DNA of 61,653 nucleotides from Caldithrix abyssi (GTDB taxonomy: Bacteria; Calditrichota; Calditrichia; Calditrichales; Calditrichaceae): positions 1-61,653 of the forward strand of contig DRQG01000161.1 of NCBI GenBank assembly GCA_011369465.1, in the 5' to 3' direction. Below, piece after piece: positions 2,159-33,813 of this stretch. The translations under genes were made by a program, and so were the position numbers. How positions within the stretch are numbered: position 1 is the stretch's first letter; every line of letters begins with the position of its first letter. The notes beneath the pieces were generated by a model that was not told the origin of the DNA, made no database searches, and saw only the letters and a program-made list of their open reading frames with translations.

Positions 2159-4984
2159 CTACATCCCCAACTCTTTTTTCAAAAACCGGCCGGTGTAGGA
2201 TTTTTTTATGTTGGCCACCTGCTCCGGTGTGCCTTCGGCGATAATGCGTCCGCCTTTTTCTCCGCCTTCCGGACCGATGTCAATGATCCAGTCCGCCGTT
2301 TTAATCACATCCAGATTATGCTCAATTACGATGACGGTGTTACCCTTATCCACCAGTTTGTTCAAAACATTGAGCAGCATCTTGATATCTTCAAAATGTA
2401 ACCCCGTAGTCGGCTCGTCCAGAATATACAGCGTATTGCCCGTTCCTATTTTGGACAACTCGGTAGCCAGTTTAACCCTCTGCGCCTCCCCGCCGGAAAG
2501 CGTAGTAGCCGCCTGCCCCAAATGAATATACCCCAGCCCCACATCCGAAAGCGTTTGCAGGCGGCGTTTGACCACCGGGATATTGGCCATAAACTGCAGC
2601 GCCTGATCCACGGTCATATCCAGCACGTCGGCAATGGATTTGCCTTTGTATTTGATCTGCAGGGTTTCGCGGTTGTAGCGTTTACCCTTGCACACCTCGC
2701 ACTGCACGTACACATCGGGCAAAAAATGCATCTCAATCTTCTTGATGCCGTCGCCTTCGCAGTTTTCGCAGCGTCCGCCTTTTACGTTAAAGCTGAAACG
2801 CCCCGGTTTGTACCCGCGTATTTTCGATTCCGGAAGTTGGCTGAACAGGTCGCGGATGGGCGTAAACAGGCCGGTGTACGTAGCTGGGTTGGAGCGCGGC
2901 GTGCGGCCGATGGGCGACTGGTCAAGATCGATCACTTTGTCGATATGTTCCAAACCGTCAATACGGCGGTACGGCAAAGGAATCTTTTTGGATGAATAAA
3001 ACCTGCGGGCCAGGGCCGCGTACAGGGTTTCGTTAACCAGTGTGCTTTTACCGGAACCGGACACGCCGGTAACACAGATGAACTTGCCCAGAGGAAAGCG
3101 CACTTCAACATCTTTCAAATTATTTCCGGAAGCGCCTATGATTTTCAACGCTTTGCCGTTCCCCTGCCGCCGCTGCGGAGGTACCGGGATGCTCTTTTTT
3201 CCGCTAAGATAATGCCCGGTCAAACTTTTACGCGATTTACTCACCCGAAGCGGCGTTCCGGCCACCACCACTTCGCCCCCGTGCCGGCCGGCGCCCGGTC
3301 CCAGGTCAATTACAAAATCGGCCGTTTCGATGGTTTCTTTGTCGTGTTCCACCACCAGTACGGTGTTGCCCAAATCACGCAGCTGCTTGAGGGTTTCGAT
3401 CAGTTTGCGGTTATCGCGCTGATGCAGGCCTATACTCGGCTCATCCAGAATATACAACACGCCCACCAGCTGCGAGCCGATTTGCGTGGCCAGCCGGATG
3501 CGCTGCGCTTCCCCGCCGGAAAGTGTTCCCGCCGAGCGGCTCAGGGTAAGGTAGTCCAAACCCACATTCAGTAAAAATTGCAGGCGCTGGCGGGCCTCTT
3601 TTAAAATCTGATGGGCGATCTGTTCCTGCTGGCGGGTTAGTTTAAGATTGCTTAGAAACTGAGCCGCTTCCTTGATGGACATCCGCGTTAATTCGTCAAT
3701 ATTTTTCCCGTTCAGTTTTACAGCCAGCGCTTCTTTTTTGAGCCGCGCGCCACGGCACACCGGACAGGGCACATTGTTCATAAAGCCTTCGATCCAGCGG
3801 CGGATATGGGCCGAACCGGTCTGTTTATAGCGGCGCAGCAGATTGTTGACCACGCCCTCATAATTGCTGTACCATTCCAGATGGGCGTTTTTGCGGTCGT
3901 AAATGAATTTAACCTTCTTGTCGCCCAACCCGTACAGGATAATCTGCTTGGCTTCTTCCGGCAAATCCCGCCAGGGCGCGTCCAGATCAAAGCCGAACTC
4001 CCGGGCCACGCTTTGCAGCAAGCCGTAATTCCAACCCTCACGGCGATGGCTCATCACCCGTAGGGCGCCTTCGTTAATACTTAGCGACTCGTCCGGAACC
4101 AGTAAATGGGGATCAATTTCCGTGAGCGATCCCAATCCGTCGCAATGGGGGCAGGCGCCGAAAGGGCTGTTGAAAGAAAAGGTGCGCGGAGCCGGTTCTT
4201 CGATGGAAATATTGCAGTGGGCGCAGGCAAACTGCTCGCTGAACAGCACATCTTCGCCGCTGTCCGGCTTATTGATGAAGATAATACCTCCGGATTGCTT
4301 CAGCGCCAGTTCCACGGAATCGGTCAGCCTCTTTTGCACTTCCGGCTTGATCACCAGCCGGTCAACCACCAGCTCGATATTGTGTTTTACGTTTTTATCC
4401 AACCGGATGTCTTCGTCTTCCAGCAAATGGAAGGTTCCGTCCACCCGAACGCGTACAAATCCGTCTTTTAAGAACTGCGCGAACAGATCGCGGTATTCGC
4501 CTTTGCGGCCGCGCACTACCGGTGCCAAAATCTGTATCCGCGTGCCTTCGGGCCAGGATAGCAGACTATCCACGATCTGCTGGACGGTTTGTCGTTCCAC
4601 CTTACGCCCGCATTGCGGGCAGTGCGGCTGCCCTATCCGGGCAAACAACAGACGGAAATAATCGTAAATTTCCGTTACCGTCCCAACGGTGGAACGGGGA
4701 TTGCGGCTGGTGGATTTTTGCTCAATGGATATGGCCGGAGACAAGCCGTCGATGTAATCCACATCCGGCTTTTCCATCAAGCCCAAAAACTGACGGGCAT
4801 AAGCGCTGAGCGATTCCACATAACGCCGCTGGCCCTCCGCATAAATGGTATCGAAGGCCAGACTGGATTTCCCCGATCCGGATAATCCGGTGATGACTAC
4901 CAGCTTATCCCGCGGAATTTCCACATCGATGTTTTTTAAATTATGTTCTCTGGCACCTTTTACCAGAATGGTGTTTTTTTTCAT
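2159..4984 (-). CDS. uvrA: UvrA, excinuclease ABC subunit A
   Basis: 941 residues, full length for UvrA, the damage-sensing ATPase of nucleotide excision repair that loads UvrB at lesions. Two ABC modules are visible: Walker [11 protein letters not shown] near residue 33 and [10 protein letters not shown] near 640, each followed by an LSGGEAQR signature (in [16 protein letters not shown] and [15 protein letters not shown]) and a Walker B ending in ILDEP. The zinc motifs are present: CPQCGRK near 122, CAHC...CPHC around 255-285, and CENCEGDG...CEVCKGK near 740. All key residues look intact. The universal stress gene ends only three bases upstream of this start, so the two are probably co-transcribed. 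The start is the first Met, giving the usual N-terminus [19 protein letters not shown]. Confidence 0.98.
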
Positions 4985-27559: not shown

Positions 27560-28213
27560 TCAAATCCGGCGAATGATATAAATGCTAACCTGTATGGACC
27601 GGCCCTCCTGCATTACCGTCTGCGGTATCCTTTCAAAACCGTACCCTTCTTCGCGCAGTAAAGAAAAGAAGGAGCGGGCAACCGCGCGATTCGGTTCGGC
27701 TAATATAATGTGCCCGTCTGCCTTCAGGCATTGACGGAACACACGAATGAGAGGATGGAAGAACCGTTCTTCGTACACCACATCCGAGGCCGTGATGCAG
27801 TCATACAAACCGGCACACTGTGGCCGGCGCCAGTCCATCAATTGGCGCTGCGGCGCAGGCATTCCATTTAATTTAAAATTTAACGCCGTCAAATCCAGCG
27901 CATCCTGCTCATAATCGGTAACCAGCAATTCCCGCGGCTTTTGACAAGCCAGGCTGAGCGACGTTAGGCCCAGGCCGCAGCCCAATTCCAAAACCGAACG
28001 TCCCGCAACCAGATGCGGATTCTGGAACAGAAAACGACTGAGCGCCTCGGCGGACGGCCAGAGCTCCGCCCAGTAGGGCAAACGTTCATCCTCCGCAAAG
28101 TCCGCGTCGCTGACCCGATCCACCATATCATCGAGATTTTTGACCCGTTTGATGGTGAGCGTTTTTTCGCCGAATTGAAATTGTTGTTCGATCAGTTCGA
28201 TATGTTCAAACAT
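27560..28213 (-). CDS. Class I SAM-dependent methyltransferase (protein-lysine or small-molecule type)
   Basis: 217 residues. The SAM-binding motif SVLELGCGLGLTSLSLA lies near 72-88, preceded by PYWAELWPSAEALSRFL, the pattern of the METTL21/nicotinamide-N-methyltransferase-like branch. An acidic 'VTDYEQDALDL' follows at about 98-108 and TASDVVYEERF near 137. The substrate cannot be read; protein lysines are common targets in this branch. The gene overlaps the 3' end of lpxB by eight bases, so they are expressed together. Confidence 0.85.
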   Translation of the reverse strand: MFEHIELIEQQFQFGEKTLTIKRVKNLDDMVDRVSDADFAEDERLPYWAELWPSAEALSRFLFQNPHLVAGRSVLELGCGLGLTSLSLACQKPRELLVTDYEQDALDLTALNFKLNGMPAPQRQLMDWRRPQCAGLYDCITASDVVYEERFFHPLIRVFRQCLKADGHIILAEPNRAVARSFFSLLREEGYGFERIPQTVMQEGRSIQVSIYIIRRI

Positions 28214-29339
28214 TTTGAATAAACGTATTTACTTCGGTCGCCGCCCGCCGGGAAGCGCCGGTTTCTCCAAGTTTCTCGCGAATTATTAACAAATTTTCGC
28301 GGATTTCACGGTTTTTTTCCGGTATGAGCATAATCTCCAGCTCCCGGGCGGCAATCTGCGGCGTAAAAGCGTCCTGAATCAATTCCGGCGCCACTTTGCT
28401 TCCGGCCACGATATTCACGAGCGCAATACTGTCCAGTTTAACCAGTCGTTTGGCCAGAAAATAAGTGAGTTTGTTGACCTTGTACACCACAACCATCGGC
28501 ACGCCGTAATAGCCGGTTTCCAGAGTGGCCGTACCGGAAGCCACAAAAACCGCGTCATAGCGCGGCAGGCACTGATGCAGCGCTTCCTCCGTTATCCCGA
28601 TAAACGAATCCGACGCCGCCAGACAGCCGGCATACAATTCTTCCGGCAGATGTTCCACTTTGACGATTTGCGCCCGTTTGATCTTTTGTTCTTCATACAG
28701 AATACGCACCGCCCGTACCATATCGGGCAGCAGGCTCTCCACTTCCTGCTTACGGCTCCCGGGCAGCAAACCGATGGTTATATTGCGGGGATCGACGGAT
28801 TTGGGTTCCTGCGGCACACGGCCGGCGTGTTTATCCGCCAAAGGATGCCCCACATAAACGGCTTCGATGCCGTACTGACGGTAAAAATCCACTTCAAAGG
28901 GAAAAACGACCAGCATCTTGTCCACATAGCGGCGGATTTTTTTCACCCGCCCCCTGCCCCAGGCCCAGAGCTGGGGACTGATGTAATAGACAACCGGGAT
29001 GCCCATTTTTTTTAACGATCGCGCCATACGCAGGTTAAATCCCGGGTAATCGACCAAAATGGCGCAAGACGGTTTTTCTTTGCGGGCTCTTTCCAGCAAA
29101 TCGTTTTGTACCCGGCGGATAAAGGGCAGATGTTTGATCACTTCGCTGAGGCCCAGAAAAGCCATATCCTTAATATGATACAACAATTCCATACCGGTTG
29201 CGACCAGGGCCTCTCCGCCGATACCGAAAACGGAAAGACCGCCGCGCATGGTTTGCAGTTCCTTAATCAGCGCCGCGGCATGGGCGTCGCCCGATGGTTC
29301 GCCGGCGATGAGGAGTAATGTATTTTTTTGACTTTGCAT
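28206..29339 (-). CDS. lpxB: Lipid-A-disaccharide synthase
   Basis: 377 residues, normal for LpxB, a peripheral inner-membrane glycosyltransferase that joins UDP-2,3-diacylglucosamine and lipid X into the lipid A disaccharide. Signature segments: LLIAGEPSGDAHAA at the N-terminus, DYPGFNLRMARSLKK near 97, YYISPQLWAWGRGRVKKI near 117, LLPGSRKQEV near 195 and FVASGTATLETGYYGVPMVVVYK near 267. It shows the cell makes lipopolysaccharide or a lipid A analogue, so is diderm. It is the first gene of a pair with the methyltransferase. The integron-like cassette island begins about 390 bases upstream. Confidence 0.96.
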   Translation of the reverse strand: MQSQKNTLLLIAGEPSGDAHAAALIKELQTMRGGLSVFGIGGEALVATGMELLYHIKDMAFLGLSEVIKHLPFIRRVQNDLLERARKEKPSCAILVDYPGFNLRMARSLKKMGIPVVYYISPQLWAWGRGRVKKIRRYVDKMLVVFPFEVDFYRQYGIEAVYVGHPLADKHAGRVPQEPKSVDPRNITIGLLPGSRKQEVESLLPDMVRAVRILYEEQKIKRAQIVKVEHLPEELYAGCLAASDSFIGITEEALHQCLPRYDAVFVASGTATLETGYYGVPMVVVYKVNKLTYFLAKRLVKLDSIALVNIVAGSKVAPELIQDAFTPQIAARELEIMLIPEKNREIRENLLIIREKLGETGASRRAATEVNTFIQNV

Positions 29340-29468
29340 ACAGTATATGTGTTATTTTGTTATTGTAGGTTAAGCAGCTTTACTGCACGGCATTCTAATT
29401 TAATGAAGAAATGGCTATGTGGCTAATAAAAGCTTTCTGCAATTTATAAACATCAAAGCGTACACCAA

Positions 29469-29627
29469 TCACGTATAAAATAAATCACAACCGGTCAAGT
29501 TGCTTGTTTCGATGATTATTTTATCAATCTTTGCCGATTTGTTAATTGAGTTATTTGAATGCAGGAAAATGAAAAAACCCACTGTTGCAATTATCAAACT
29601 TGATACGATGAACAATCTATTTTTCAT
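29469..29627 (-). CDS. Small membrane-anchored ORF (52 residues) at the array's end
   Basis: A short frame from ATG at 29627 to TGA at 29469 encodes 52 residues starting MKNRLFIVSSLIIATVGFFI, a positively charged start plus one strong hydrophobic span, then a short polar tail. It has the shape of a signal anchor or of the beginning of a longer exported protein cut short. It lies just beyond the last attC-like site, in the same orientation as the cassettes, and could be a broken last cassette. No family is recognised. The remaining sequence of the 29340-29730 gap shows nothing else. Confidence 0.4.
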   Translation of the reverse strand: MKNRLFIVSSLIIATVGFFIFLHSNNSINKSAKIDKIIIETSNLTGCDLFYT

Positions 29628-29730
29628 TCACGGGTCAAATCCTTAAATTTTGACTCTATAGATTGTGTATTTGCCCTGAAAAAGATTGAGAATAAAATTA
29701 GCGATATGAAGAACCATTTTAATTTAACGA

Positions 29731-29857
29731 CAGCTACGGTGAGTATAAGCGTAGTGCGGGTTTTCGGAGCACTTCAATTTCTCCAATTGATTAATTATAG
29801 TTAACTCGTTCATTTTTAGTATTTAATCCCGCATTGCGTATAGCTATTGTTACCTGC
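29731..29857 (-). other. attC-like site e (3' end of the RidA/SRPBCC cassette)
   Basis: Read on the minus strand the site begins with GCAGGTAAC (29849-29857), which overlaps the SRPBCC stop codon, continues AATAGCTATACGCAATGCGGG, and ends AACCCGCACTACGC...CTCACC before GTAGCTG (29737-29731). The two arms pair imperfectly, as in attC sites. Its left box is complementary to the 5' end of its own cassette (GTTACCCGC at 30710-30702) at eight of nine bases. The right box GTAGCTG departs from GTTRRRY, so this is the degenerate end of the array. Confidence 0.75.
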
Positions 29858-30266
29858 CGGCTTTATTCATTTCATTCGTTAATTTCTTTATTATTTCTGT
29901 CCAATATTCTTTCATTTCCGTTCGCTGTTCCGAGTTCAATAATTTTTCTTGATGGATTGCAATTGTAGTTTTATTTTCATTTCCAATTACTCGAATTTGA
30001 ACCGTTGACATATTTTCCCAAGTTTTCGGTTTCCAATTCAGGCGAATATGTGAATTTGGTTTAAAAACTCGAACAAGTCCTGTTATTCCATTTTCAGTTT
30101 CAAATTCCTTTTTCAATTCGAGTTTAGTATATAAATTTCCAAGCCAAATTTTCAAACCGTTTTCCGAAAATAGAAAATCCCATACTTTTTCAGTCGAAAC
30201 AGATATTGTTTTCCTAATTCCGAATTGAAATCCTACGTCTTTTGTTTTTCCTATTTGATTTTCCAT
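29850..30266 (-). CDS. SRPBCC (AHSA1/START-like) domain protein, cassette gene
   Basis: 138 residues from the chosen start at 30266 (MENQIGKTKDVGF), four bases after the RidA stop and preceded by AGAGATTAAG; a longer frame from 30302 would overlap RidA. The sequence fits the AHSA1 branch of the SRPBCC fold: FGIRKTISVSTEKVWDFLFSENGLKIWLG at the start, a central strand region with SHIRLNWKPKTWENMSTVQIRV, and a C-terminal helix with YWTEIIKKLTNEM. Such domains bind hydrophobic ligands or chaperones. It shares one cassette with RidA. Codon use is A+T-rich, unlike the flanking chromosome. Confidence 0.8.
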   Translation of the reverse strand: MENQIGKTKDVGFQFGIRKTISVSTEKVWDFLFSENGLKIWLGNLYTKLELKKEFETENGITGLVRVFKPNSHIRLNWKPKTWENMSTVQIRVIGNENKTTIAIHQEKLLNSEQRTEMKEYWTEIIKKLTNEMNKAGR

Positions 30267-30270
30267 TTTC

Positions 30271-30669
30271 TTAATCTCTCGGTAAAAACGCAATTGCGTC
30301 AATTTCTAATAAAAAATCCGGATTGATTAATCCCGCAACATATAAAACAGTAATTGTCGGTGGTTTACTATTCTGACCTAAAAATTTTTGTGAGACTTGA
30401 AACGCGCCATAAGCATTTTGTCCTTGAACGATATGAATATTCAGTTTTACTAAATTATCAAAATTTGCTCCGCAAGATTGAAGTGCAATTTCGAGATTTT
30501 TCATTACTTGTTCTGCCTGTTTCAATATGTCGCCTTTTCCAACAATTTCACGTTTTTCATTTACCGCATTCTGCCCACCGATATAAATTGTTTTCCCCTT
30601 TCCTTCTGTTGTAACGATTTGAGAAAATGCAGGATTTTTAATCAATCCATCTGGGTTTATATGTTCCAT
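30271..30669 (-). CDS. RidA-family (YjgF/UK114) protein, cassette gene
   Basis: 132 residues from the start at 30669 (MEHINPDGL), chosen because GGAG lies six bases upstream; the Met four codons earlier would place that site inside the gene. The RidA fold is shown by KNPAFSQIVTTEGKGKTIYIGGQNAV, the segment ILKQAEQVMKNLEIALQSCGANFDNLVKLNIHIV, and the end LINPDFLLEIDAIAFLP. Family members hydrolyse reactive enamine/imine intermediates; the usual catalytic Arg near residue 105 is not obvious here (PDFLLEIDA), so the activity may be different. It is the first gene of a two-gene cassette. Confidence 0.85.
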   Translation of the reverse strand: MEHINPDGLIKNPAFSQIVTTEGKGKTIYIGGQNAVNEKREIVGKGDILKQAEQVMKNLEIALQSCGANFDNLVKLNIHIVQGQNAYGAFQVSQKFLGQNSKPPTITVLYVAGLINPDFLLEIDAIAFLPRD

Positions 30670-30701
30670 TTTATTCTCCATTATTTTCGGTTATTATGCT
30701 T

Positions 30702-30835
30702 GCGGGTAACGGTTGGTATAAGAAAAGTAGGCGATTTCGAAGCACGAAACTTTCAATTTACAAGAAAGCTCGAACGGGCTACAAGCCCTGATATTACTAC
30801 TATCTCGCCTATTTTTTATATACATTGTTGTTTAC
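30702..30835 (-). other. attC-like site d (3' end of the alpha/beta hydrolase cassette)
   Basis: On the minus strand: left box GTAAACAAC (30835-30827), then AATGTATATAAAAAATAGGCGA, a central spacer, TCGCCTACTTTTCTTATACCAACC and right box GTTACCCGC (30710-30702). The arms fold back with typical attC mismatches. The left box matches the complement of its own cassette's 5' end (GTTGTGTGC at 31704-31696) at seven of nine bases. Confidence 0.82.
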
Positions 30836-30842
30836 TGGCATT

Positions 30843-31676
30843 TTATTCTTCAATAAATTCAATTGTTTTTTCTATCGACTTTTTCGAGTCTGTTCCAATC
30901 CAAAATAAGTGTCCCCATTCATTATTTAATTCAATAAGTTTTGTATTCTCAATCATTTTTTTTGAATATAAAGCGTGCTCAAATGGAACACTATTATCAT
31001 TTTTACTATGAATTATTAAAGTTGAACATTTAATATTTTTAAGTATTTCAACATTAATATTTTGACTAATATCATTTAAAAACCCCATCTTAGAATTGTA
31101 GTGTTTCATTGATAAGAGCAGTTCTTGTATGTCTTTCATCTTTAGTTTATGAATCGGATTTTTTGAGAATTGTGTATAAAAACTCTTTGCTATCATATAC
31201 GGAAAAATCTTTGAAAATATCCTCACAATTCCCCATGTGATTCTTTCCGTTTTGGGATTGAAAATTATTTGAGTTATTTTATAAATCTTCTCATCTTCAT
31301 CGAGCCATCTTTTGGAAACAGCCGAGGCTAGAATTAATTTTTTCACTCTATCAGGATAATTTGCAGCCAATTCTATTGCTGTTAAACCACCAGCAGATAT
31401 TCCATAAACAATCACATTGTCTATTGATAAATGGTTTAATAATTCTATAATTAAATTAGCTGCCTGCTTTGGGGTTTTAGTATTATCCAATGGCGTTCTA
31501 CCGTATCCGGGACGAGAAGGAATAATCAAATGAAATTTTTCTAAATCAAATCCTTTCTTGCAAAGAAATTCATGGCAATTTGAATGTCCCCCATGCACAA
31601 ACAAAACCGGAACACCTTTTCCTTCTGAATAGTATTCAATTTTTCCAAGTTTTGTATTTATAATTTCACAACTCAT
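30843..31676 (-). CDS. Alpha/beta hydrolase, cassette gene
   Basis: 277 residues from the start at 31676 (MSCEIINTKLGKIEYYSEGKG); a frame start at 31712 lies inside the preceding attC site and is not used. The hydrolase fold is clear: oxyanion loop FVHGGHSN near 26-33, the nucleophile elbow YGISAGGLTAIELA with Ser94, the acid Asp in HSKNDNSVPFEHA near 235, and the catalytic His in EWGHLFW near 257. A proline-iminopeptidase or lactone/ester hydrolase-like activity is possible; the lid region does not fix the substrate. It fills one cassette alone, in the same orientation as the others. Confidence 0.88.
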   Translation of the reverse strand: MSCEIINTKLGKIEYYSEGKGVPVLFVHGGHSNCHEFLCKKGFDLEKFHLIIPSRPGYGRTPLDNTKTPKQAANLIIELLNHLSIDNVIVYGISAGGLTAIELAANYPDRVKKLILASAVSKRWLDEDEKIYKITQIIFNPKTERITWGIVRIFSKIFPYMIAKSFYTQFSKNPIHKLKMKDIQELLLSMKHYNSKMGFLNDISQNINVEILKNIKCSTLIIHSKNDNSVPFEHALYSKKMIENTKLIELNNEWGHLFWIGTDSKKSIEKTIEFIEE

Positions 31677-31695
31677 TATTTCGTTTCTTCTGCTT

Positions 31696-31794
31696 GCACA
31701 CAACATCCGCAATTTAACGAAGTTTTCGGAGCGTAGCGAAGAGAATTTGGGTGGAGCGTATGTAATAAGCGGAACCGTTAAATTGCTGTTATGC
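31696..31794 (-). other. attC-like site c (3' end of the RusA-like cassette)
   Basis: On the minus strand: left box GCATAAC (31794-31788), then AGCAATTTAACG, a loop, CGTTAAATTGCGGAT and right box GTTGTGTGC (31704-31696). Complement of the cassette's 5' end (GTTATAC at 32252-32246) is GTATAAC, a match at six of seven bases. 99 bases long. Confidence 0.78.
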
Positions 31795-31863
31795 TCTCCC
31801 GACAGGGATTAATTTTTAGTGCGACGATGTCGAAGGCAAAAAATCAAAGTTGAATTGTGGACG

Positions 31864-32241
31864 TTATAGAAAAGTTACATCTACCCCTTCATTCTTAGTA
31901 TTATCAACTAATATTCTTTCTATCTTTATAGATTTCATTTTATGTTCTTCTATAACTGATATCTCGTTTAGTGCATCAATAATCGGTTTTAGAAAATTAT
32001 CTAGATCATTCCTATTCTTGCCAACTCTTGACTTATCAAGAAATAATTTTATTTTAATTCCAAATTCTGAATTTAATTTCTTGTGATTTTTGAAAGCCTC
32101 TTTTATATCTTTTTTAAATGTCCAATAAGGGCTTCCCTCTTTTGTTGAGCCTCCAAAAGTTTTAGGTTTTGTGTATATTCGAGTCATATCTTTTATTAAT
32201 AAATCAATGAAATATTTAATACTTTCTAGCCCACAATTCAA
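31864..32241 (-). CDS. RusA-like Holliday-junction endonuclease, cassette gene
   Basis: 125 residues if the TTG at 32241 is the start, or 107 from the ATG at 32187; the longer form gives the fold its first strand but lacks a clear ribosome site, so the start is open. The RusA core is visible in VGKNRNDLDNFLKPIIDALNE, with the paired catalytic Asp (DLDN) and the following Lys. Where Escherichia coli RusA has a further Asp (WEDDS) this protein has VIEEH, so the third acidic ligand would be Glu. RusA resolves four-way DNA junctions and is normally a phage gene. No phage gene is near. An 11-base inverted repeat brackets the frame (31850-31860 and 32231-32241). Confidence 0.75.
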   Translation of the reverse strand: MNCGLESIKYFIDLLIKDMTRIYTKPKTFGGSTKEGSPYWTFKKDIKEAFKNHKKLNSEFGIKIKLFLDKSRVGKNRNDLDNFLKPIIDALNEISVIEEHKMKSIKIERILVDNTKNEGVDVTFL

Positions 32242-32243
32242 TT

Positions 32244-32379
32244 AAGTATAACGGTGAGTATATGAGGCGTTGGGCGTTTTATTGCACTGACTTTTCAACT
32301 TACTATGCCTTTTATTTATGTTCATAATGTTTAATTTAACTATCACTTGCCCAATGCCTTATATACATTGTTCACTTCC
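32244..32379 (-). other. attC-like site b (3' end of the nuclease cassette)
   Basis: On the minus strand: left box GGAAGTGAAC (32379-32370), then AATGTATATAAGGCATTGGGC, a 70-base spacer, GCCCAACGCCTCATATACTCACC and right box GTTATACTT (32252-32244). The left box is the exact complement, ten of ten bases, of the cassette's own 5' end (GTTCACTTCC at 33235-33226), which is the hallmark of an integron cassette. Right arm and left arm pair over more than 15 positions with gaps. Confidence 0.88.
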
Positions 32380-32388
32380 GTTTTATTT

Positions 32389-33210
32389 TCAGGTAAAATC
32401 AAATAACATTAATTCAATCTTTATTGTTCGTTTATTATCTTCTGGATGCTTGAATAAGTAAGAAAAAGAAGTACTATTTCTTTCTCGAATGAAACTGTGA
32501 AAGTTTGGATGATTTTCCATTGCTTCTTTTGCTTTTTCAATTACATCAGTAAAATTTTGAACGGTTTTGTTAAAAATCATTAGAGCAATTTTTTCATCCC
32601 TCCAATTCACATATCTATCAAGAAGTTGATTTATTGCGTCTGTAAATTGTGCTTGACCTCTCCAAATTTTACACTCGCCAATAAACACATTTTCTCCATG
32701 TTCGTTTTGAATTAGGATGTCCGTTCTTCCAATTCCATTGAATGTTTCGCCAGTAGCAACATGATTTCTGGATATCGAATTTAAAAATGGAAGAAAATAA
32801 TCTCTACTTCTTTCTTCGTCAAAATTCACTCTTAAATCTCTTGACTTTTCTAAATTTCGTCCAAGTAAATTTATATAATCAATTATTTGAGAATATGCAT
32901 TATCGCTAATTGAGGATATTCCTTCTTCGACAAAATCAGGGTCAACTGGACTTCCTGTAAAATAACTTTCCAAAGCAACGGTTACTTCTCTTTGTACTTC
33001 TTCAATATCATAAACTCTTGAAGGGTAAACAGTCAAATTTTGATGTGGACTACTTCTACTTGTACTGTTTGAAATATTTACAGTTCTTGTGCAATTCAAT
33101 CCTTCCAGAAACGCTTGGATCTCATTTATTCGAGTTAGGTCTCTAATAAATACTTTCAAGTATTTTTTGTTAAATACTTCTCTTATTTCTGTATCAAAAT
33201 TTCTTGGCAT
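32389..33210 (-). CDS. PD-(D/E)XK nuclease-like protein, cassette gene
   Basis: 273 residues from the Met at 33210 (MPRNFDTEIREVF). A longer frame from 33237 begins with an ATG whose G is the cassette crossover base and is less likely. The C-terminal half carries a restriction-endonuclease-like core: Asp164 in NGIGRTDILI, then Glu179 and Lys181 in VFIGECKIWRG, followed by QFTDAINQLLDRYVNWRDEKIALMIFN. The Asp...Glu-x-Lys spacing fits PD-(D/E)XK enzymes. The N-terminal half is not recognised and could bind a partner or target. A defence role is plausible because such enzymes are frequent in cassettes, but there is no direct proof. No methyltransferase accompanies it. Confidence 0.7.
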   Translation of the reverse strand: MPRNFDTEIREVFNKKYLKVFIRDLTRINEIQAFLEGLNCTRTVNISNSTSRSSPHQNLTVYPSRVYDIEEVQREVTVALESYFTGSPVDPDFVEEGISSISDNAYSQIIDYINLLGRNLEKSRDLRVNFDEERSRDYFLPFLNSISRNHVATGETFNGIGRTDILIQNEHGENVFIGECKIWRGQAQFTDAINQLLDRYVNWRDEKIALMIFNKTVQNFTDVIEKAKEAMENHPNFHSFIRERNSTSFSYLFKHPEDNKRTIKIELMLFDFT

Positions 33211-33227
33211 TTTTTCTTTTTTAATGG

Positions 33228-33324
33228 AAGTGAACATCCCGATAAACGCATTGCGTTTATTCGGAATATATGTTAATTCTCTACTACGTTTAATGCGCTG
33301 GTTTGCACGTATAGCGGGTTAAAC
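33228..33324 (-). other. attC-like site a (first site of the array)
   Basis: On the minus strand a left box GTTTAAC (33324-33318), an exact RYYYAAC match, starts one base after the stop of the TPM gene; the right box GTTCACT (33235-33229) opens the nuclease cassette. A strong inner stem (CGAATAAACGCA with TGCGTTTATCG) lies next to the right box. A shorter reading, with left box AATTAAC at 33278-33272, is also possible. In either case the left box belongs to the sequence before the first cassette and need not match it. Confidence 0.7.
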
Positions 33325-33325
33325 C

Positions 33326-33766
33326 TTATTCGCCAAAAGAAATATCGTCGGACAGCTCGTTTACGTCGTCGGTTTGGTAGGGGAAGTACTCTTTCAGTTT
33401 TTCGCCAACGCGCCGGATACCTTTTACCACGCCATCGGCAAAAGCGCCTTTTACAAATTCCTCGCGCATCTCTTCCTTAACGTCTTCCCAAAAATTTTCC
33501 GGGACGACTTCGTTAATGCCCTTATCGCCGTAAATGGCGAATTTACGGTCTTTTACCGCCAGGTAAATAATCACGCCGTTGCGTTGTTCGGTTTGGAACA
33601 TTTTGAGTTTTTGGAATAACTTCATAGCCCGCTCCAGCGGATCGCCTTTGCAGACTGTTTCCAGATGCAGGCGGATTTCGCCCGAGGTCTCTTTTTCCGC
33701 CTCCCGAATGGCTTCAACAATGTGTTCTTTTTCTTCTTTTGTAAAAAACTTTTTTACCGATATCAT
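33326..33766 (-). CDS. Cytoplasmic or secreted small TPM-domain protein
   Basis: 146 residues from the Met at 33766 (MISVKKFFTKEEKEHIVEAI). The open frame extends upstream to 33928, but those extra residues are Arg-rich out-of-frame read-through of the glycine-rich end of the next gene and are not real. The TPM fold is seen in IREAEKETSGEIRLHLE, RNGVIIYLAVKDRKFAIYGDKGI and the end ADGVVKGIRRVGEKLKEYFPY. There is no signal peptide. It resembles the short TPM proteins that accompany a longer TPM protein and LemA; all three are here in a row. The molecular role of TPM domains outside photosystem II repair is not settled. Confidence 0.85.
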   Translation of the reverse strand: MISVKKFFTKEEKEHIVEAIREAEKETSGEIRLHLETVCKGDPLERAMKLFQKLKMFQTEQRNGVIIYLAVKDRKFAIYGDKGINEVVPENFWEDVKEEMREEFVKGAFADGVVKGIRRVGEKLKEYFPYQTDDVNELSDDISFGE

Positions 33767-33813
33767 ATCATCAATCCATCCATTCAAGTATTCAATTAAT
33801 TTAGCCCCGCTTA

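Follow-up and report, generated by a model that had tools for sequence, protein, structure and literature searches.

A probable integron cassette array, with no integrase close by, at the TPM–lpxB junction of a Calditrichota chromosome

The window, that is, the whole stretch of 61,653 nucleotides that was analyzed, corresponds to contig C161 of a 4.31-Mb Caldithrix abyssi genome (G000) assembled into 161 contigs, with a completeness of 98.5% and an estimated contamination of 3.7%. The phylum, proposed in a first-pass annotation from the sequence alone, is confirmed by the DPP III of relative G005, which matches the Caldithrix abyssi structure PDB 6EOM along its full length (residues 1–558; PMC5805324) and identifies G005 as Caldithrix abyssi; G000 belongs to the same family. 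A TPM-domain gene and lpxB enclose four cassette units, each encoded on the minus strand (table 1). The first-pass annotation had described four gene units: these stand, and the ORFs number five, as the L-PSP and AHSA1 ORFs occupy a single unit. Both the common strand and the A+T richness of these units are borne out by the ORF list and the composition, the G+C content of the array being 0.315 (31.5%), as against 0.456 in the window, 52.6% in lpxB, and 45.7% in the TPM gene.

Table 1. Features of the TPM–lpxB region, ordered along the minus strand (positions are those of the window)
Feature	Coordinates	Strand	Evidence
TPM-domain protein, host gene upstream of array	33326..33769	-	Pfam TPM_phosphatase 86 bits; relatives' orthologues 57–76% identical
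Site e, ORF-less element, array 5' border	33233..33323	-	Pattern and profile family, 6 Calditrichota genomes
Cassette gene 1, PDC-S54-related protein (phage-defence candidate)	32389..33210	-	PADLOC PDC-S54 199 bits, residues 108–281
attC site d	32246..32376	-	R1 63.4 bits, E 3.5e-12; R2 84.8 bits, E 8e-18
Cassette gene 2, RusA-like, start codon uncertain	31864..32241	-	Pfam RusA 24.6 bits, cut-off 22.8
Site c, probable attC of another type	31698..31794	-	11-bp perfect inverted repeat between AAC and GTT
Cassette gene 3, alpha/beta hydrolase	30843..31676	-	Pfam Abhydrolase_1 60 bits
attC site b	30704..30833	-	R1 60.8 bits, E 1.3e-11; R2 96.3 bits, E 1.5e-20
Cassette gene 4a, RidA / L-PSP family	30271..30681	-	Pfam Ribonuc_L-PSP 66 bits
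Cassette gene 4b, AHSA1 / SRPBCC-type protein	29850..30268	-	Pfam AHSA1 34 bits
Site a, degenerate attC, array 3' end, right box GTAGCTG	29732..29854	-	R2 37.8 bits, E 1.1e-6
A+T-rich (31%) stretch up to lpxB, 52-aa ORF inside	29340..29731	-	Composition
lpxB (lipid-A-disaccharide synthase, name by resemblance), host gene downstream of array	28206..29339	-	Orthologues in 21/21 genomes searched

The predicted cargo is accessory, comprising a defence candidate, a RusA-like product, a hydrolase, and RidA and AHSA1 proteins. The product of cassette gene 1 had no match in a Pfam search and looks PD-DExK-like by eye only; its start codon was set at 33210 because the listed ATG at 33237 falls in the site e junction. 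The hydrolase encoded by cassette gene 3 shares 28% identity with EstT across 224 aa. No relatives of the L-PSP cassette gene were found in viral contigs, and a search of a phage collection gave no match. The 52-aa ORF downstream of site a had no Pfam match, and the stretch that holds it is either host spacer or a cassette remnant.

attC sites are delimited by the boxes R'' (RYYYAAC) and R' (GTTRRRY), of which attCaadA7 and the VCR type are canonical examples, and two extrahelical bases direct their recombination through the bottom strand. The first-pass annotation described five sites, each with an AAC-type left and a GTT-type right box. This is true of b, c, and d, in which both cores are present and the outer box letters are partly off, but not of site a, which has GTA, nor of site e, which is a different element. 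Canonical GTTAGGC boxes are found at some relatives' sites of the b/d type. As had been noticed, b and d share their arms, AACAATGTATATAA...TATACyMACCGTTA. Two covariance models free of window sequence, R1, built from five relatives' sites, and R2, built from 39 R1-found matches and hence not an independent second test, place these sites far beyond chance. R1 recovered d, b, and, at 17.4 bits, a; R2 matched the same three sites, all in one orientation, with minus-strand scores far above the 35, 32, and 19 bits that b, d, and a reach on the plus strand, so the polarity of the sites follows that of the genes. Even a simple scorer of AAC/GTT arms put d at 14.6 and b at 12.5, where the best of 60 shuffles of the 3.7 kb scored 10.x. 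In the stem of the five relatives' sites, 10 of 17 pairs show double-sided changes (none of 500 shuffles reached any measure of this covariation), and the arms of the window sites conform to the same pattern. Nearly every ungapped site of this type carries A.C stem mismatches at arm positions 7 and 12.

Site a, with broken outer L'' pairs in addition to its altered right box, is a degenerate attC that R2 still recognizes, and part of the array may therefore be frozen. Its 3' arm is 94% identical over 35 nt to that of the site following lnu(I) on a Riemerella plasmid. Site c had no match in the R1 and R2 searches of the window. Its 11-bp perfect inverted repeat (31702–31790), of a kind found in one of 300 shuffles, is the sole AAC-to-GTT inverted repeat of at least 10 bp on the minus strand of the window and suggests a plausible, probably genuine, attC of another type; a longer alternative fold extends to 31869. 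An Rfam search of the window at gathering thresholds returned no matches.

This attC type is not confined to the window. The exact arm TATACTCACCGTTA is found in 5 of 40 Calditrichota genomes (the reversed-pattern control gave one match), and several of these matches are full hairpin sites. AACAATGTATA alone, tried as a genome-wide marker, was dropped, its matches being mostly coding; likewise, pattern matches L172, L176, L180, and L181 showed no hairpin on inspection and were discarded. By blastn, site b is 75–81% identical over about 130 bp to sites of Riemerella, Myroides, and Persicobacter plasmids. The plasmid sites are spread through series of genes that mostly share one strand, among them blaOXA, tet(X), estT, blaMYO-1, and aadS. 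The closest sites in named records border antibiotic-resistance genes of Bacteroidota. On plasmid pPP2 of Persicobacter psychrovividus (L199), R1 identified 15 coding-strand sites across 20 kb in which most ORFs share one strand, with one site in each gene gap. The viral-contig matches L193–L196 had no R1 match.

Contigs C89 and C32 of the G000 assembly also carry attC-type sites. On C89 (L227, 9807–11967), an AAA/OLD-like gene, so named by visual inspection, and an 83-bit attC-type site follow an e element. On C32 (L246), about 11 kb of A+T-rich DNA with mostly plus-strand ORFs contains three attC-type sites and two e elements. The ygfZ-like region of C32 (named by resemblance) is 85.8% identical at the DNA level to G020, a member of another family; this suggests mis-binning or transfer, and C32 was therefore set aside as evidence for G000.

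Relatives of the same family show what the locus looks like without the array. Their TPM–lpxB gap measures 8 bp in G009, 79 bp in G011, 85 bp in G006, 88 bp in G007, 208 bp in G001, and 301 bp in G004, as against about 4 kb in the window genome. None of these junctions contains such cassette genes, and a profile search for element e found nothing there. The six genomes thus present the empty site that characterizes an attG-type chromosomal insertion, and the situation that would have spoken against the first-pass annotation, the same genes at this place in relatives with unrelated spacers, was not encountered. We rejected one further gap as cassette bearing: in G008, from another genus, the junction holds an unrelated radical-SAM-like gene (L152, 2675–4156).

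Site e had been taken for a site like the others; its sequence says otherwise. It starts 2 bases after the TPM stop codon, ends in ...GCGTTTATCGGGATG^TT, and carries AACATATAT where sites of the b/d type carry AACAATGTATA. On these sequence grounds, it belongs to a separate family of ORF-less elements and does not qualify as a canonical attC. Six Calditrichota genomes contain its end, TAAACGCAATGCGTTTATyGGGATG^TT; the reversed-pattern control gave no match. In G007, about seven copies of an ORF-less unit of roughly 200–250 bp, alike up to the GTT at both ends and mostly starting at a GTTAGC box, are interspersed with attC sites and genes (L228, L229, L230); units of G011 and G018 start with GTTATAAGC and likewise have GTT boundaries. 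The G007 unit contains a promoter-like match, TTGTCA-17-TAAATT, and a promoter scan of a single copy found 2 where 0.9 were expected. For the 14 copies outside G007, we compared the G+C content of 800 bp on each side. It falls from 0.42–0.56 upstream to 0.28–0.37 downstream in nine, among them the window copy (0.51 to 0.31) and copies on C32 (doubtful), C89, and C117 of G000. Composition and the nearest upstream ORF suggest that these nine stand at host/array borders. Two copies (the second ones on C32 and C117) lie inside arrays by composition, and the remaining three (G018 C116, G019 C163, and G019 C77) have less than 100 bp downstream, too little to judge a drop in G+C. Upstream of two e copies on C117 (L226, around 3700–4100), we observed an inverted repeat, CTAAAAAGG...CCTTTTTAG(AGTGGACTC), which is possibly a MITE. 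Element e was found neither in plasmids nor in viral contigs. As no copy occurs at any intI locus examined, we rejected the idea that IntI in this phylum uses it as attI; element e may be a first cassette, a promoter cassette, or an attI-like start.

A TIGR02249 search detected no IntI on C161. The first-pass annotation's statement that there is no integrase therefore holds within the 61 kb but not genome-wide: contig C104 of G000 encodes a full-length IntI (455.9 bits for a cut-off of 265), next to which lie three ORFs, TIR-type or hypothetical, and an attC that differs in type from the array sites. The ORFs beside intI include divergent TIR/ThsB-like ones (L006, 1277–2924; PADLOC ThsB 206 bits), and the attC (L006, 1170–1271) has bulge-type unpaired bases and arms unlike those of the array sites, so that C104 looks like an integron whose first cassette resembles defence genes. 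A BatA-like gene of C104 is closest to those of same-family genomes (79%). Among 60 relatives, 18 encode an IntI above the cut-off, all inside the class; the closest named relative of the C104 enzyme is that of Calditrichaeota J004 (78%). Sites of the array attC type stand beside intI in Calditrichota G016. In J004, an R2-type attC of 53.7 bits (L015, 209–340) abuts intI codon 59 with a G^TC junction, which is either an insertion in intI or an assembly join.

CALINs are defined by at least two attC sites in one orientation, less than 4 kb apart, with no integron integrase nearby. Here, R2 identifies a, b, and d, all on the minus strand, on a contig without IntI; a complete integron would have intI and attI adjoining the array, and the window contig carries no intI. 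We therefore interpret the locus as an integron cassette array without a local integrase, inserted between TPM and lpxB on a Calditrichota chromosome, with a probability of roughly 0.85. The CALIN reading, already advanced in the first-pass annotation, gains from covariance models trained elsewhere, from compensatory changes, from near-identical sites in other arrays, and from flanking genes that are adjacent in relatives. Each cassette would have been captured as a circle, its attC folded into a single-stranded hairpin that an integron integrase supplied in trans, either the C104 IntI or an earlier one, cut at G^TT. Neither a cassette in circular form nor a difference between strains was observed. 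We infer an action of the C104 IntI on the array sites with some reserve, since its own attC differs in arms and unpaired bases. With an integrase acting in trans, the array would have been assembled here and would not be the remnant of an integron that lost intI. Element e at the 5' border could act as a leader providing a promoter and/or an attI-like insertion point, a role proposed because members of its family also occupy the host/array border in other arrays.

A rival account, possible though in our view on the unlikely side, has the cassettes entering singly at ordinary attG sites via IntI in trans, with e a coincidental neighbour or a first cassette of no special role. Integration at attG has been described, at least as Loot et al. 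(2024) are cited in PMC12901181 and PMC11023631, and the J004 sequence that ends in a site of the array type and abuts intI codon 59 at G^TC fits it; but an element that precedes arrays at several host borders with a conserved end exceeds what a random neighbour would offer. Less probable still is that a once complete integron at this junction lost intI and attI and left decaying cassettes. Although the degeneracy of site a could be so explained, the distance from the TPM stop codon to the first gene-bearing cassette is only about 90 bp, no intI remnant was found on the contig, the relatives lack an integron between TPM and lpxB, arrays with different neighbouring genes open with the same border element, and the genome keeps intI elsewhere. 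An ordinary genomic island derived from another element, with chance inverted repeats between its genes, would account for the foreign A+T-rich composition but is very hard to reconcile with the compensatory changes, the cross-genome covariance matches, and the Persicobacter array with its single site per gene gap.

Beyond the window, we put forward a wider and decidedly doubtful proposal: that Calditrichota genomes hold several dispersed arrays with a conserved attI-like element, devoid of ORFs and apart from intI, at the head of each, so that one IntI serves many entry points in trans, and that their attC type with two fixed mismatches is shared with the resistance cassettes of Bacteroidota. 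We found no paper mentioning integron, attC, and Calditrich- together in the literature searched (further points were drawn from PMC9024848 and PMC9668308). The present data document integron cassettes and integrases in Calditrichota, link their attC type to cassettes of resistance genes in Bacteroidota, and provide a case of chromosomal cassette insertion with empty sites in relatives. If e is indeed a landing site apart from the integrase gene, this would bear on how CALINs arise.

Like known CALINs, the array alternates small accessory genes with several attC sites of one orientation and has no intI nearby; it differs in opening with an ORF-less element common to the phylum's other arrays and in belonging to a genome that encodes IntI on another contig. 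With the attG sites of Loot et al. (2024), as far as the citing papers describe them, it shares chromosomal cassettes away from the attI beside intI, whereas here IntI is the putative maker of the TPM–lpxB insertion and element e could be a specialized entry point. Gene-less promoter cassettes are known from Vibrionaceae and oral integrons (PMC11014356, PMC6557892). Element e likewise has no ORF, and its G007 copies have a GTT boundary on either side, but outside G007 it stands mostly at the host/array border and its promoter role is putative. The sites resemble canonical attC in their R''/R'-like boxes, with AAC and GTT cores at b, c, and d and outer letters partly off, and in their imperfect stem and variable terminal loop; in place of one-sided extrahelical bases, they show the A.C mismatches at positions 7 and 12 (G.T on the bottom strand). 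The plasmid arrays of Riemerella anatipestifer, Myroides odoratimimus (p63039), and pPP2 share this stem geometry, both fixed mismatches included, but their cargo includes antibiotic-resistance genes, whereas the array described here is chromosomal and carries other accessory genes.
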